A stretch of 64,000 bases of DNA from Microbacterium neungamense. Its GTDB lineage: Bacteria; Actinomycetota; Actinomycetes; Actinomycetales; Microbacteriaceae. The stretch covers positions 682,001-746,000 of the forward strand of contig NZ_CP069717.1 in the NCBI RefSeq assembly GCF_024971095.1, in the 5' to 3' direction. The notes below the pieces were generated by a model, which saw nothing but the letters and a program-made list of their open reading frames with translations, was not told the origin of the DNA and made no database searches. This document shows positions 41,082-47,015 of the stretch, piece by piece; position 1 is the stretch's first letter, and every line of letters starts with the position of its first letter. The position numbers and the translations under genes were made by a program.

Positions 41082-42020
41082 TCACCAGGCCAGGGCGTCG
41101 GCGAGAGCGGGGTCGGGGGCCGTGTCGGCGAACTCGGGGAGCGCGCGCAGCCCGGCCAGGAAGGCGTCCAGTTCCGCCCGGTACGCGGGATCCGGATGCG
41201 CCTGCGCGATGCGCTGCAGCGGCGGCACGTCCATCGCGAGGATGAGGTTGAGCCGGGCGAGCACCGCGGCCGGATGCCCGGCGCGCCCGAGCACCTCGAT
41301 GCCGCCGCGGAGCGCGGCGAGATAGTCGCGCAGCACGGGCAGCGTGTCCTTGCCCTGCGTGATCGAGGTGCCGTCGGCGCGCACCCGCCACGACACCACC
41401 ACCTCCGGGATGACGTCGAAGGCCGCCGCGCGGGTGTACATCAGCTGCGCGACGATCTGGTCCTCGTAGGCGACCCCCTCGGGGAAGCGCAGGTCGTCCC
41501 AGAACTCCGTCCGGCTCAGCTTGGACCAGGCGACGATGTTCGCCGAGGCGTCCGGATGCTCCGCGAGCGTCGTGCCCAGCCGCCGGGGCGAGGTGGCCGC
41601 CGCGACCCACGGCTGGACCTGTCCCGGCCGGTACTCGCCGTCGATCCGCCGGCTGCGCACGTACGCGCCGGCGACGAAGTCGCTGCCGGACTCGGTGAGG
41701 GCGGCGAGCCAGCGGGCGATCGCGTCGGGTGCGAGCTCGTCGTCCGCGTCGAGGAACCCCAAGTACGGGGTGTCCACGAGCTCGAGCCCGGCGTTGCGGG
41801 CGCCGCCCAGGCCGCGCGCCTCCTGGTGCCGCAGCAGCATGAACCGGGGATCGGCGTCCGCGGCTGCGGCGAAGATCGTGCGGGTGTCGTCGGCCGAGCC
41901 GTCGTCGATGAGCACGGCCCGCCAGCGGGACTCGGTCTGCGCCTGCAGGGAGGCGATCGCGGCGGGGGCGTAGGCGGCGATGTCGCGCCCGGGCACGATC
42001 ATCGTCACGAGGGGGGTCAC
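41082..42020 (-). CDS. Glycosyltransferase family 2 protein
   Basis: A 312-residue GT-A fold enzyme. It starts TMIVPGRDIAAYAPAAIASL, has the nucleotide-binding IDDGSADDT near residue 39, GLGGARNAGLELV near residue 70 and the metal-binding DADDELAPDA near residue 91. A C-terminal helical tail of about 100 residues follows. Donor and acceptor are unknown. The start is GTG at 42020. No other polysaccharide genes are nearby, so its pathway is open. Confidence 0.85.
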   Translation of the reverse strand: MTPLVTMIVPGRDIAAYAPAAIASLQAQTESRWRAVLIDDGSADDTRTIFAAAADADPRFMLLRHQEARGLGGARNAGLELVDTPYLGFLDADDELAPDAIARWLAALTESGSDFVAGAYVRSRRIDGEYRPGQVQPWVAAATSPRRLGTTLAEHPDASANIVAWSKLSRTEFWDDLRFPEGVAYEDQIVAQLMYTRAAAFDVIPEVVVSWRVRADGTSITQGKDTLPVLRDYLAALRGGIEVLGRAGHPAAVLARLNLILAMDVPPLQRIAQAHPDPAYRAELDAFLAGLRALPEFADTAPDPALADALAW

Positions 42021-42066
42021 CCGCCGAGTCTACGGCCGCCGCCCGGTCCCCGATGCGCGCACCCTC

Positions 42067-42130
42067 CCGGTCGTTGAGCGAGGACCGCGGAACGGGGCGT
42101 TTCGTCTCGCTTCGGTTGCTCAACGACCGG
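42067..42130. repeat. Palindromic repeat overlapping the nifS stop codon
   Basis: Perfect 13-bp arms (42067-42079, CCGGTCGTTGAGC, and 42118-42130) enclose a core GGGGCGTTTCGTCTCGCT. The right arm supplies the last codons and the TGA of nifS. The core also occurs twice inside nadB at 44418-44522. Confidence 0.82.
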
Positions 42131-43298
42131 AGAACGCTCCGACGGCGGTGACGGCCTCGGCGACGAGGCGTGCGAGGCGCTCCGGGGCGTCCGGGGGCAG
42201 GGGAGCGCGGCCGAAGGTGAAGCGGACCGCGGTCTGCGCGACCTCCGGACGGATGCCGAGGGCCAGCAGCACCGGTGACGGTTCGTCGCTGCCGGCGGCG
42301 CACGCCGAGCCGCTGGAGGAGAGCACCCCGCGCCGTTCCAGCTCGAGCAGCACCGCCTCGCCGCTGGTGCCGGCGAACGTGAAGCTCGCCACGCTCGGCA
42401 GCCGTCCCGGTGCGCCGGCGGCACCGGCATCCGCCGTGTCCGAGTCCGGCGGAGCGCCGGTCAGCGCCGCGCCGGGAGCCTGTGCGAGCACGCCCGTGAT
42501 GAAGGTCCGTGTGGCGGCGCCGACGCGGGCGGCCGCCTCGGCGCGCTCGGCCTCGGCGAGATCGAGGGCGGTGGCGAGGGCGACCGCCCCGGCGACGTTC
42601 TCGGTGCCGCTGCGGCGTCCGCGCTCCTGCCCGCCGCCGTGCAGCACCGGCTCGACCGGGATCCGCGATCGCACCGCCAGCGCGCCGGTGCCCTTGGGTG
42701 CGCCGAGCTTGTGACCGGCGATCGACACCGCATCCGCCCCGAGCCCGGCCAGCGGCAGCCATCCGGCGGACTGCACCGCGTCGAGGTGGAACGGCACACC
42801 GCGTTCCCGGGCCACGGCGACGAGCGCGGCGGCATCCTGCACCGTCCCCACTTCGTTGTTCGCGTGCCCGATGCTGACCAGGGCGGTGTCCTCGCGGACC
42901 GCTGCGGCCAGGTCGCGCGGGTCCACCCGTCCGCATCCGTCGACGGGCAGCACAGTCACCTCGGCGTCGTGGAAGCGCCGCAGGTGATCGGCCGACGCCA
43001 GGATCGACTCGTGCTCGATCGCCGTGGTCACCAGGTGCCGGCGCGAGCCGCCCAGCACGATGCCCTTCACCGCGAGGTTGTTCGCCTCGGTGCCGCCCGA
43101 GGTGAACACGACGTCCCCGCCGCGCATCCCCAGCGCCGCCGCCACACGCGACCGCGCCTGCTCGAGCGCCTCCGCCGCCGCATGCCCGGCGCCGTGGTGG
43201 CTGGACGGGTTGCCGAAGACGTCGGTGAGGTACGGTCGCATCGCCTCGAGCACCTCCGGACGCACCGGCGAGGTGGCGGCGTGGTCGAGGTACAGCAT
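42120..43298 (-). CDS. nifS: Cysteine desulfurase of the NAD operon
   Basis: A 392-residue class V PLP enzyme. The cofactor lysine is in SIAGHKLGAPKGTGAL near residue 198 and the active-site cysteine in SSSGSACAAGSDEPS near residue 328. The N-terminus is MLYLDHAATSPVRPEV. It probably builds the [4Fe-4S] cluster of NadA, as inferred from its place in the nadABC operon. A low-complexity Ala/Gly loop around residues 285-295 is extra. The last four residues (FSGR) and the stop come from the palindromic repeat, so the original C-terminus may have been altered. Confidence 0.9.
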   Translation of the reverse strand: MLYLDHAATSPVRPEVLEAMRPYLTDVFGNPSSHHGAGHAAAEALEQARSRVAAALGMRGGDVVFTSGGTEANNLAVKGIVLGGSRRHLVTTAIEHESILASADHLRRFHDAEVTVLPVDGCGRVDPRDLAAAVREDTALVSIGHANNEVGTVQDAAALVAVARERGVPFHLDAVQSAGWLPLAGLGADAVSIAGHKLGAPKGTGALAVRSRIPVEPVLHGGGQERGRRSGTENVAGAVALATALDLAEAERAEAAARVGAATRTFITGVLAQAPGAALTGAPPDSDTADAGAAGAPGRLPSVASFTFAGTSGEAVLLELERRGVLSSSGSACAAGSDEPSPVLLALGIRPEVAQTAVRFTFGRAPLPPDAPERLARLVAEAVTAVGAFSGR

Positions 43299-44173
43299 CA
43301 GCCGTCCCGCTCGGTGAGGCCCACGTCGAGGCGCACGTCCAGGCCGAGGTCGAGCGCCCGGGCGGAATGCGTGAGCGCGCCGACGGAGATGACCTGCACG
43401 CCGGTCTCCGCGATCGCCCGGACGGTGTCCAGGGTCACTCCGCCGGATGCCTCGGCGGTGGCGCGGTCGCCGATCAGTGCGACGGCCGCCCGGAGGTCGT
43501 CGAGCGTGAAGTTGTCCAGCAGCACCGTGTCGGCCCCGCCGTCCAGCACCTCCGGGATCTGCTCCAGCCGGTCCACCTCGACCACGACATGCGTCGTGTG
43601 CGGCAGCCGCTGGATCCCCTCGCGCAGCGCCGCGGCGACGTCCCTCCCACTCTGGCGCAGCACGGCGAGGTGATTGTCCTTCGCCATCACGGCATCCGAC
43701 AGCGAACGGCGGTGATTGCTGCCGCCGCCGGACACGACGGCGTGACGCTCGAACTCGCGAAGCCCGGGCGTGGTCTTGCGCGTGTCGGCGATCCGCACGC
43801 CGGTGCCGGCCACGGCCTCGACATAGGCGGCGGTGAGCGTGGCGATGCCGGCCATCCGCTGCACGAAGTTCAGGGCCACGCGCTCGGCGGTGAGGACGCT
43901 GCGGGCGTTCCCGCGGACGCTGGCGAGCACGTCGCCGGACTCGAAGCGGTCGCCGTCGCCGACGTGCAGATCGACCTCGACGCCCGGGTCGGTGAGAGCG
44001 AACGCCGCCGCGAACACGTCCCCGCCGCTGAACGTGCCGGACTCACGGGCGACGAGGTCGGCGGTCGCCACGGCTTCCGCCGGCAGCAGGGCGGTGCTGG
44101 TGATGTCGCCCCACGGGGCATCCTCCTCGAGGGCGGCGCGGACGACCCGGTCGAGGGCGGCGGCGGTGATCAT
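43298..44173 (-). CDS. nadC: Nicotinate-nucleotide pyrophosphorylase (carboxylating)
   Basis: A 291-residue enzyme that turns quinolinate and PRPP into nicotinate mononucleotide. Conserved blocks are visible: LNFVQRMAGIATLTA near residue 103, DTRKTTPGLREFERHAVVSGGGSNHR near residue 132 and EASGGVTLDTVRAIAETGVQVISVGALTHS near residue 240. The stop overlaps the nifS start by one base and the start overlaps the nadB stop by four, so nadB-nadC-nifS are coupled. Confidence 0.95.
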   Translation of the reverse strand: MITAAALDRVVRAALEEDAPWGDITSTALLPAEAVATADLVARESGTFSGGDVFAAAFALTDPGVEVDLHVGDGDRFESGDVLASVRGNARSVLTAERVALNFVQRMAGIATLTAAYVEAVAGTGVRIADTRKTTPGLREFERHAVVSGGGSNHRRSLSDAVMAKDNHLAVLRQSGRDVAAALREGIQRLPHTTHVVVEVDRLEQIPEVLDGGADTVLLDNFTLDDLRAAVALIGDRATAEASGGVTLDTVRAIAETGVQVISVGALTHSARALDLGLDVRLDVGLTERDG

Positions 44174-45681
44174 CGGGCTCCGATCAGGGCGGGGGCGTCG
44201 AGGTGGTGTGCGCCGGCGGATTCCGTGCGGGCGAGGGCCGCGGATGCCATGGCGCGGGCGACCGTGAGCAGGTTGGCGTCCTCGAGGTCGTGCACGGTGC
44301 GGATGTCGGGGGCGCGCCAGGCGTCGAGGTCGCGGACGGCGGATGCCAGGCCCTCGGGCGTGCGAAGGAGGCCGACCCGCGTCCACAGGAGGTGCTGGAG
44401 CTGGTCGCGGGCGAGCCGGTGGGGCGTTTCGTCTCGCTGCGCTCGCCCGACGACCGGGGAGGGCGGTCGCCCGATAACGTGGGGCGTTTCGTCTCGCTGC
44501 GCTCTCCCGACGACCGAGGAGGACGTGAGGGCCTGCACGAGACGGGCGGCGAACACGGCGCCCTCGAGGAGGGAGTTCGATGCCAGCCGGTTCGCCCCGT
44601 GCACGCCGGTGCGCGCGGTCTCGCCGACCGCCCACAGCCCGGGCAGCGACGTGCGGCCGTCGACGTCGGTCACCACACCGCCCATCAGGTAGTGCGCGGC
44701 CGGGGTGACCGGCACCGGTTCGCGCGACCAGTCCCAGCCGCGTGAGCGGATCTCCCGGTCGATCGTCGGGAAGCGGCGGGCGAGCTCGGCGGCCCCGAGG
44801 CCGGTCGCGTCCAGTCGCACCGGTGCTCCCTGCGCGGCGGCGCGCCGGGCGACCGCGCGCGCGACGACGTCGCGCGGCGCGAGCTCGGCATCCGGATGCT
44901 CCTCGAGCAGGAAGCGCCGGCCGTCTTCGTCGACCAGCGTCGCGCCGGCCCCGCGGACCGCCTCCGACACCAGGAACCCGGTCCCGCCATCCAGCACCGT
45001 GGGGTGGAACTGCACGAACTCCAGGTCGGCCACCGCCGCCCCGGCCCGCAGCGCCATCGCGATCCCGTCGCCGGTCGTCCCGGCCGGGTTCGTGGTGTGC
45101 GCGAACAGCTGCCCGGCGCCGCCGGTGGCCAGCACCACGGCATCCGCCTCGATCTCCTCACCGCGTCCGATCCCGCCGCCGAGGAGACGGATGCCGTGCA
45201 CGCGGCCGTCGCCTGCGAGCAGGTCTGCGGCGGGGGCGTGCTCGCGCACGCGGACCCGCGCCTCCCGCACGCGCGCGGTCAGCGCGGCCGACACCGCGCG
45301 GCCGGTCGCGTCCCCGCCGGCATGCGCGATCCGGGGCCGACTGTGCGCGGCCTCCAGCCCTCGCGCGAGGGCACCGTCGGCCGCGCGGTCGAAGACCACG
45401 CCGGCGGCGGCCAGCCTCCGCACCGCCGCCGAGGCGCCGTCCACGAGCGCGGCGATGGCGACCGGGTCGCCCAGGCCGTCACCGGCGTGCGCGGTGTCCA
45501 GGGCGTGCAGGGCGGGGGAGTCCCCGGGGCCGTACACACCGGCGATGCCGCCTTGCGCGTGCGGGGTGCACCCGTCGCCGAGCGCTCCCTTCACCAGCAG
45601 CTCCACCTCGTGGCCGCGGGCCGCTGCGAGGAGCGCGGTGCTCAGCCCGGCGATCCCGCCGCCGGCGACCAGGACCCTCAT
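44170..45681 (-). CDS. nadB: L-aspartate oxidase
   Basis: A 503-residue FAD enzyme that makes iminoaspartate for quinolinate synthesis. The Rossmann motif VAGGGIAGLSTALLAAARG opens the protein; HAQGGIAG, ATGGAGQLFAHTTNPAGTTGDG and GVHGANRLASNSLLEGAVFAARL follow. After the FAD domain, residues of about 387-421 hold two copies of PVVGRAQRDETPH, 20 codons apart, encoded by a repeat also found outside genes. This insert lies at the linker before the helical C-terminal domain. The frame is kept, so the enzyme is probably active. Overlaps link it to nadA and nadC. Confidence 0.94.
   Translation of the reverse strand: MRVLVAGGGIAGLSTALLAAARGHEVELLVKGALGDGCTPHAQGGIAGVYGPGDSPALHALDTAHAGDGLGDPVAIAALVDGASAAVRRLAAAGVVFDRAADGALARGLEAAHSRPRIAHAGGDATGRAVSAALTARVREARVRVREHAPAADLLAGDGRVHGIRLLGGGIGRGEEIEADAVVLATGGAGQLFAHTTNPAGTTGDGIAMALRAGAAVADLEFVQFHPTVLDGGTGFLVSEAVRGAGATLVDEDGRRFLLEEHPDAELAPRDVVARAVARRAAAQGAPVRLDATGLGAAELARRFPTIDREIRSRGWDWSREPVPVTPAAHYLMGGVVTDVDGRTSLPGLWAVGETARTGVHGANRLASNSLLEGAVFAARLVQALTSSSVVGRAQRDETPHVIGRPPSPVVGRAQRDETPHRLARDQLQHLLWTRVGLLRTPEGLASAVRDLDAWRAPDIRTVHDLEDANLLTVARAMASAALARTESAGAHHLDAPALIGAR
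44418..44522. repeat. Two in-frame repeat copies inside nadB
   Basis: Copies at about 44418-44463 and 44478-44522 share GGGGCGTTTCGTCTCGCTGC and are offset by exactly 60 bases. Each ends CGACGACCG or a close variant, as in the palindromic repeat at 42067-42130. Confidence 0.85.
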
Positions 45682-46982
45682 CGCGGTCTCGCCGCCAGCA
45701 TCCGCTCGAGCGCGACCCGGGCGGGCTGCGCGACCTCCTCGGCCACGCGGATGCGGTTCGGGGTGCGCCCGGCGACGAGCTCCTCGAGCACCCAGGCCAG
45801 GTAGCCGGGGTGGATGCGGTACATCGTCGAGCACGGGCAGACCACGGGGTCGAGGCAGAAGATCTCGTGCTGCGGATGCTGCGCCGCGAGCCTGCGGACG
45901 AGGTTGATCTCGGTGCCGATCGCGAACACGGTCGGCTCCTCCGCGGCGGCGATGGCGCGACGGATGTAGTCGGTGGAGCCGGCCTCGTCGGCGGCGTCGA
46001 CGACCTCCATCGGGCACTCGGGGTGCACGATGACCCGCACGTCCGGATGCTCGGCGCGCGCCTTCGCGATCTGGTCGACCGTGAACCGGCGGTGCACCGA
46101 GCAGAAGCCGTGCCACAGGATCACGCGGCCCTCGCGCAGCTCGTCCTCGGTGGCGCCGCCGAGCGGCCGGCGCGGGTTCCACATCGGCATCCGCTCCAGC
46201 GGCACGCCCATGGCCTTGGCCGTGTTGCGTCCCAGGTGCTGGTCGGGGAAGAAGAGCACCCGGCGCCCGCGGGTGAACGCCCATTCCAGCACGGTCGCCG
46301 CGTTCGACGACGTGCACACGATGCCGCCGTGGCGGCCGACGAAGCCCTTGATCGCCGCGGAGGAGTTCATGTACGTCACCGGCACCACGGGCACGAGCCC
46401 GTCGGCGTCCGGCTCGTCGAGGGGACCGAGCACCTCCGCCAGCTGCTCCCAGCAGTCCTCGACCTGGTCGATGTCCGCCATGTCCGCCATCGAGCACCCG
46501 GCCGCCAGGTTCGGCAGGATCACCGCCTGCTCCGGGCGGGAGAGCAGGTCCGCCGTCTCGGCCATGAAGTGCACGCCGCAGAACACGATCGCCTCGGCAT
46601 CCGGATGCTCCAGCGCGGCGTTCGCGAGCTGGAACGAGTCGCCCACGTAGTCGGCGTGCCGCACGACCTCCTCGCGCTGGTAGAAGTGCCCGAGCACGAC
46701 GACGCGCTCGCCGAGGGTCGCGCGGGCGGCGCGGATGCGGGCGTCCAGCTCGTCCTCGCCGGCCTCGCGGTACGCGGCGGGGAGCTCGCCCTGCCGTGGC
46801 GCGCCGACCGGGATCACGTCGCCCATGGACGAACCGGGACCGTACCCGGGGCGGGTGTCGAAGTCCCACGGGCCGGCGGCGAGGTCGGTCGAGCAGGTCG
46901 CCTCGGTCGAGGCGCCCGACACGATCGCGCGGATGGCGTGGTCGACCGAGGGATCGGTCAGCGGAAGCGAGGAGGTGGGCAT
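45678..46982 (-). CDS. nadA: Quinolinate synthase
   Basis: A 434-residue [4Fe-4S] enzyme that condenses iminoaspartate with DHAP. Three cluster cysteines can be placed in VFCGVHFMAE, HGFCSVHRRF or HPECPMEVVD, and VVCPCSTMYRIHP; other family motifs are GHFYQREEVV and YMNSSAAIKGFVGRHGG. ATG at 46982 is preferred over a farther start because AAGGGCGG lies just upstream and because conserved sequence follows. It is the first structural gene of the nad operon and sits behind a promoter with a likely NrtR operator. Confidence 0.94.
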   Translation of the reverse strand: MPTSSLPLTDPSVDHAIRAIVSGASTEATCSTDLAAGPWDFDTRPGYGPGSSMGDVIPVGAPRQGELPAAYREAGEDELDARIRAARATLGERVVVLGHFYQREEVVRHADYVGDSFQLANAALEHPDAEAIVFCGVHFMAETADLLSRPEQAVILPNLAAGCSMADMADIDQVEDCWEQLAEVLGPLDEPDADGLVPVVPVTYMNSSAAIKGFVGRHGGIVCTSSNAATVLEWAFTRGRRVLFFPDQHLGRNTAKAMGVPLERMPMWNPRRPLGGATEDELREGRVILWHGFCSVHRRFTVDQIAKARAEHPDVRVIVHPECPMEVVDAADEAGSTDYIRRAIAAAEEPTVFAIGTEINLVRRLAAQHPQHEIFCLDPVVCPCSTMYRIHPGYLAWVLEELVAGRTPNRIRVAEEVAQPARVALERMLAARPR

Positions 46983-47015
46983 CGGGCACCGCCCTTTTGG
47001 TCGGGGTGACACTTA

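Follow-up and report, generated by a model that had tools for sequence, protein, structure and literature searches.

Short palindromic repeats within genes are known from Rickettsia, where they are called RPEs (Ogata et al. 2000, 2002, as cited in PMC10969869 and PMC3733652). Intragenic palindromes are established in that genus and, as REPs, in several other bacteria (PMC3733652, PMC10969869). REPs of the GTAG and CGTC super-families (Di Nocera et al. 2013) are stem-loops located mostly between convergent or unidirectional genes and sometimes within ORFs, including those of repair genes; repeats of the GTAG type often provide a stop codon (PMC3733652). The layout of CGTC repeats comprises a CGTC tag, a stem of 8-9 bp starting with A/T pairs, a loop of 4-5 nucleotides and a CCA-like tail; these repeats are listed in five phyla without Actinobacteria, a word absent from the main text of that paper (PMC3733652). 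MITEs are non-autonomous dispersed repeats able to fuse in frame with genes, the in-frame elements of Rickettsia are considered unusually frequent, and similar protein evolution elsewhere in prokaryotes is regarded as conceivable (PMC10969869). In the open-licence literature, judged by titles and the beginnings of abstracts, we recognised no report of such repeats in Microbacterium or other Actinobacteria, in agreement with a preliminary description of the present locus that knew of none in Microbacteriaceae.

The genome of Microbacterium neungamense is a single contig of 2,546,128 bases, and the window, the whole stretch of 64,000 nucleotides that we analysed, covers its positions 682001-746000. 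The homologues nearest to its NadB carry Microbacterium annotations. It contains a nadA-nadB-nadC cluster followed by a cysteine-desulfurase-like gene, and nadB harbours the segment of interest (Table 1). The score of NadB against TIGR00551 is 480.8 bits (cut-off 452.75), identifying it as full-length. The preliminary description had placed two repeat copies, 60 bases apart and in frame, at the linker of this protein, and both are found there: they are direct, 47 nt each, 94% identical, and 60 nt apart from start to start. They share the encoded peptide VVGRAQRDETPH; the longer peptide claimed to be encoded twice does not hold at its beginning, since the residue before the first copy is S, not P. 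A third, more diverged copy (77%) occupies positions 42092-42138. The copy at 42067-42130 that includes its core was described as lying outside genes, which is mostly the case, but its right end provides the last two codons and the TGA of the desulfurase-like gene. Allowing up to three mismatches, the 18-nt core of the repeat matches the window three times, always exactly (mean of 0.19 matches in shuffled sequences; 0 of 100 shuffles reach three). The structure prediction for NadB is modest (mean pLDDT of 66.9, 145 of the 503 residues below 50). Residues 390-419 fall below 50, as do other parts of the model, so the low confidence at the linker is not specific.

Table 1. Features of the nadB region in the window, and copies of the repeat that supply stop codons elsewhere
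Feature	Position	Strand	Remarks
nadA	45678..47012	-	NF006884 above cut-off
nadB, L-aspartate oxidase, 503 aa	44170..45681	-	TIGR00551 above cut-off; residues 3-500 align with 1CHU
NadB linker, residues 386-424, FAD domain to helical domain	44410..44526	-	hypervariable among homologues; coil in model
Repeat copy, first in gene order	44479..44525	+	minus strand encodes residues 390-401 with the shared peptide; shortest insert class, which lacks the small hairpin
Repeat copy, second in gene order	44419..44465	+	minus strand encodes residues 410-421 with the shared peptide; shortest insert class
nadC	43298..44173	-	ATG overlaps nadB stop codon; TIGR00078 above cut-off
Cysteine-desulfurase-like (NifS/IscS family) gene	42120..43298	-	3' end within repeat; best model TIGR03402, below cut-off
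TGA stop of the cysteine-desulfurase-like gene	42120..42122	-	from repeat (GGT CGT TGA = G R stop)
Repeat copy, mostly between genes	42067..42130	+	core match 42094-42111; perfect 13-bp inverted arms at 42067-42079 and 42118-42130
Other stop-supplying copies, G000:C1	230739, 773361, 2311392, 2446488		

The preliminary description took the segment for a dispersed repeat, and its core is indeed abundant elsewhere in the genome. With up to two mismatches it is found at 65 places, and a fuller pattern, GTTTCGTCTCG followed by up to 30 nt and CTCAACGACC, has 78 exact copies; the reversed control gives 0 in both searches. The repeat is built of two conserved boxes, GTTTCGTCTCG and CTCGCTCAACGACC, that flank a variable insert, and its core spans about 30-44 nt. 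Insert lengths, taken between boxes trimmed slightly, fall into classes from 9 to 22 nt, and the nadB copies belong to a class without a stem above 2 pairs. Among the insert types of at least 12 nt (n = 31), the best stem averages 4.1, compared with 3.1 in shuffles, single types often not being significant. The longest common class, of 21 nt (10 distinct variants), can form six pairs, five of them stacked and one beyond a usual T-T mismatch. The pairs are formed in 96.7% of cells, and 15 cells have changed on both sides. In the tested register, which was chosen from the same ten sequences, the covariation score is 0.707, whereas shuffles average 0.258 and 0 of 500 reach the observed value; sliding the register gives at most 0.248. 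Because this covariation exceeds that of the shuffles, we conclude that the longer insert classes keep a small hairpin through compensatory change.

Copies of the repeat often pair with inverted neighbours, and occur singly or in local arrays: 18 of the 39 intergenic clusters hold two or more. Classified by their flanking genes, 23 clusters are unidirectional, 12 convergent and 4 divergent. Spacing varies among the intergenic copies, and both orientations occur. There is no strand bias by contig half: the first half has 30 copies on the plus and 24 on the minus strand, and the second has 15 on each. The GC skew of the fetched stretches was too weak to place origin and terminus. Between unidirectional genes, 23 of 37 intergenic copies have the reading direction of the genic copies by hand count, which is not convincing.

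With genes called by our own codon-usage caller, trained on 25 ORFs of the window and applied to the fetched stretches, 72 of 84 copies are intergenic and 12 lie within seven predicted genes. Pfam domains were found in six of the seven (five of six excluding NadB), the remaining one being an unassigned ORF without a Pfam match, which carries two copies in its C-terminal third. In NadB, in a CydDC fusion and in a PxpB-PxpC fusion, the copies are located between domains: two in the NadB linker, one between the CydD model (16-538) and the CydC model (586-1119), and those of the PxpB-PxpC fusion between its two domain models. A heavy-metal CopA-like P-type ATPase has one copy in the stretch after SEHPIARAVA, which many relatives lack, and a VWA protein has one near its N terminus, before the VWA match. 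The three tandem copies in a UvrD/PD-(D/E)XK RecB-like protein fall within the nuclease domain match, not between domains. The same dispersed repeat is therefore both intergenic and in frame in functionally unrelated genes, as RPE-like repeats are. A likeness to the elements of Rickettsia had been proposed from nadB, and with in-frame copies in six further genes, five with Pfam domains, the comparison holds as one of behaviour.

All seven genes are read from the strand bearing GGTCGTTGAGCGAG...CGAGACGAAAC. By eye, the left box is translated as RSLSE or the close variant WSLSE in six of the seven genes and as VVGRA in nadB, so one frame is preferred. It is not the only frame accepted, as had been supposed: the genic copies of this genome use two open frames of one strand, and forward frames occur in the NadB of other species, where the preference does not hold. 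The third frame of the minus strand contains TGA in 40 of 43 variants and supplies stops. Five genes, the desulfurase-like gene of the window included, end exactly at a TGA inside a copy (...GR-stop; Table 1). Mean hydropathy is -1.58 and -1.66 for the two open minus-strand frames and -0.59, -0.23 and +0.40 for the plus-strand frames. As the open minus-strand frames encode the more hydrophilic peptides, selection on the encoded peptide would suffice for the strand bias of genic copies.

Compared with the described systems, the repeat resembles RPEs in being short and dispersed in a genus, between genes as well as in frame in unrelated genes. It is set apart from them by description, since its core measures about 30-44 nt and RPEs about 150 bp and since its host is an actinobacterium, and is not a Rickettsia RPE proper; a further difference is that one and the same linker is taken up by several families, depending on the species. 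Intergenic placement, presence within ORFs and the supply of stop codons are common to the present repeat and REPs. Unlike GTAG REPs, the ten aligned variants and the consensus contain no GTAG, and there is no RAYT. The string CGTC is present, but the stem has 5+1 mostly G-C pairs and the loop 3 nt, in contrast to the CGTC super-family. Like MITEs, the repeat is non-autonomous, dispersed and capable of in-frame gene fusion; unlike them, it is much shorter, and single copies show no long terminal inverted repeats. In its behaviour the present repeat is like the Rickettsia elements and REPs, but its layout is neither that of GTAG/RAYT nor that of CGTC repeats.

Both nadB copies have two substitutions off the family consensus, GCTCAACGACC having become GCCCGACGACC or TCCCGACGACC. 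Among the 84 listed copies, no other has both substitutions and one copy has one of them. These shared changes favour one old arrival followed by a 60-bp tandem duplication, which is probably the simplest history and fits better than two independent insertions; the second copy was thus probably not inserted, contrary to the preliminary description. P0002, the closest relative and a NadB 90% identical to the present one, has differences scattered outside the linker. Its linker is largely different and holds one degenerate copy (VVERAKRGETH). Comparisons of this kind suggest insertion.

The linker was parsed in 117 of 120 NadB homologues and is 28-70 aa long (median 35; 40 in the present protein), with no common sequence, and the segment is not a conserved element of NadB. 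In E. coli NadB, the linker at the same place is about as long and lacks the repeat. Since homologues lacking the repeat have a linker of similar length, the repeat occupies the native linker and does not add a new segment. An inverted repeat score of at least 12 is reached by 24 of 101 NadB linkers and by 7 of 1050 control windows of the same genes (p = 4.6e-21), and the arms are 20 nt or longer in several species. The 101 NadB loci with DNA represent 99 distinct genomes, two of them (L067, L073) outside the genus; L092 and L094 were taken as duplicates of G226 and G199, without which the count is 23 of 99, and L208, L236 and L108, with unparsed linkers, were left out. Among 71 loci outside Microbacterium by title, 5 of the 47 parsed linkers reach a score of 12, so the genus is not alone in this enrichment; one of the 71, L100, matches G026, which was counted within the genus in the genome set.

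Several palindrome families share the NadB linker in the genus, differing by species. The present repeat is found, for example, in G022, G239, G135 and G101, in several frames and orientations, forward frames included, and the same-strand rule of the genic copies fails in the NadB of other species. Palindromes of the TTCAGGTCGC...GCGACCTGAA type (family C) occupy the linker in G226 among others, a TATGAGTTCGT type that of G014, and a CCTGAGC type those of G118 and G273. Both boxes of the present repeat occur in 7 of 89 linkers, the reversed motifs in 0; this census leaves out the named loci and also G016, G023, G069 and G071, absent from the 247-genome census. The genomes of the seven have a median of 32 copies against 1 (p = 0.0037; 0.012 without the present genome). 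Exceptions are G034, with both boxes and 0 exact copies elsewhere, and G186, with just 2. Single-box matches remain at the control level (5 against 4). Exact arms of family C are found in 16 of 247 genomes, with at most 11 copies, and the nadB copy of G226 is the sole exact one of that genome. At that locus (L188) and at other NadB loci, family C forms palindromes of 58-59 bp whose ends, TTCAGGTCGC/GCGACCTGAA, are fixed and whose interior varies. The linkers of L234 (G135) and L235 (G101), of 101 and 92 aa, contain many copies of the repeat in both orientations and several frames.

A similar pattern emerges at two of the other sites. Among 120 homologues each, the interdomain linker of PxpBC and the loop before ESFQN in CopA vary in length; the long forms contain peptides derived from repeats, and by eye the short forms look unfilled. 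We counted element 5-mers, that is all those encoded by the 43 variants of the present genome, with the reversed element as control. At least three are found in 14 NadB, 24 PxpBC and 7 CopA linkers of 120 each, against 0 in each control. The numbers with at least two are 16 for NadB (control 4), 31 for PxpBC (7) and 7 for CopA (2), and those with any are 26 (22), 51 (23) and 11 (11). By the last counts NadB barely exceeds its control and CopA does not, and single matches discriminate in PxpBC only. Outside the linkers, element 5-mers are rarer than control ones in NadB (113 against 273) and near or somewhat above them in PxpBC (207 against 193) and CopA (64 against 46).

The genome contains a second dispersed repeat, CCTGAGCYYGTCGAAGG, with 54 copies (0 in the reversed control). 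Eighteen of these lie within 13 predicted genes, none of them among the seven that hold the first repeat. They are translated as PSTGSG in 14 cases (one of them PSTSSG), as PEPVEG in 2 and as TLRQAQ in 2. Ten of the 13 host genes were run against Pfam, and a domain was matched in every one of them (E up to 1e-5). The hosts include a PASTA kinase, UvrC, an acyl-CoA dehydrogenase, a P450, an ABC ATPase and a histidine kinase (example loci L270 and L256). This repeat was found in 58 of 99 genomes of the genus. Only 2 exact copies are present in G118, and G273 is outside the 99-genome sample.

In sets comprising one genome per species, 115 of the 247 genomes from the genus contain the exact pattern of the first repeat, with up to 242 copies, leaving 132 non-carriers. 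From the rest of the order 284 genomes were sampled, 12 of which belong to the same family, and the pattern is found in 0 of them. In the genomes sampled, the repeat is confined to the genus. A RAYT gene (Y1_Tnp, PF01797) was considered as a source of mobility. None was found in the present genome, and a Y1 transposase occurs in 1 of 59 genomes of the genus, one without an exact copy of the repeat. RAYT-driven spread is rejected for the genus sample, the transposase not accompanying the repeat.

We consider it highly probable that the nadB segment represents two copies of a non-autonomous, REP/RPE-like dispersed repeat that is kept in genes where it encodes a polar linker. The repeat would spread, or be locally amplified, by a route other than RAYT, and genic copies would be retained only where their polar peptide is able to serve as a linker or tail. 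One copy would have entered or overwritten the native nadB linker, a frame-preserving tandem duplication of 60 bp would have followed, and the effect on NadB activity may be near neutral. A different role could be assigned to the palindromes themselves: the hairpin in the nadB linker might be functional as an RNA or DNA stem-loop, for instance in tuning the expression of nadC, and palindromes would be recruited to maintain it there. The strong enrichment of long inverted repeats from several families in NadB linkers speaks for such a function. This reading is nevertheless improbable, as 77 of the 101 linkers, including the weak one of the window (score 9), are below the threshold, as the linkers of CopA and PxpBC are also filled with repeat-derived sequence, and as an Rfam search of window positions 41900-44700 gave no match at E up to 0.1. 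Rfam searches of 6 other loci gave none at the gathering threshold. Slightly less credible still is site-specific insertion by a recombinase targeting motifs that linkers such as that of NadB happen to have. It would account for repeats occupying the same NadB linker in different species, and likewise the linkers of PxpBC and CopA; against it, the NadB site is common to several unlike repeat families, and the intergenic copies vary in spacing and lie in both orientations.

That the peptide is a conserved functional element of NadB could be supposed from its being in frame and open within an enzyme otherwise intact in appearance. With no common sequence in the parsed linkers, and a largely different one with a single degenerate copy in a relative as close as P0002, we regard this as very hard to believe. 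Chance has the least in its favour. The high G+C content of the genome makes spurious open frames and weak inverted repeats common, but the reversed-pattern controls give 0 matches in every genome listed, which refutes a compositional artefact and leaves such an origin with almost no probability. A polar linker encoded by copies of a dispersed repeat is the reading that we retain for nadB.

A broader proposal is that dispersed palindromic repeats are a standing, genus-wide source of linkers in Microbacterium. Unlike families would refill the NadB linker, the PxpB-PxpC linker and the CopA loop, and their favoured frames would encode flexible peptides (PSTGSG; RSLSE...RDETR). To our mind the case for this proposal is evenly balanced. 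If it is true, the linker repertoire of an entire bacterial genus would be a home for repeats that at the same time go on remodelling it. One actinobacterial genome of 2.5 Mb has two repeat families in 20 predicted genes, and the linkers of known enzymes are filled differently by species. Microbacterium is a culturable genus; the entry of repeats into proteins becomes directly testable, with a natural set of tolerated linkers on offer.

Two further loci drew our attention. The NadB linker of Agreia sp. Leaf210 (L131) contains a strong inverted repeat; its translation, PELVEG...LRQAQ, is the one expected of the CCTGAGC family. At G000:C1:339773-341237, a NadB-related flavoprotein is matched as two adjoining pieces in different open frames, possibly the result of a frameshift.
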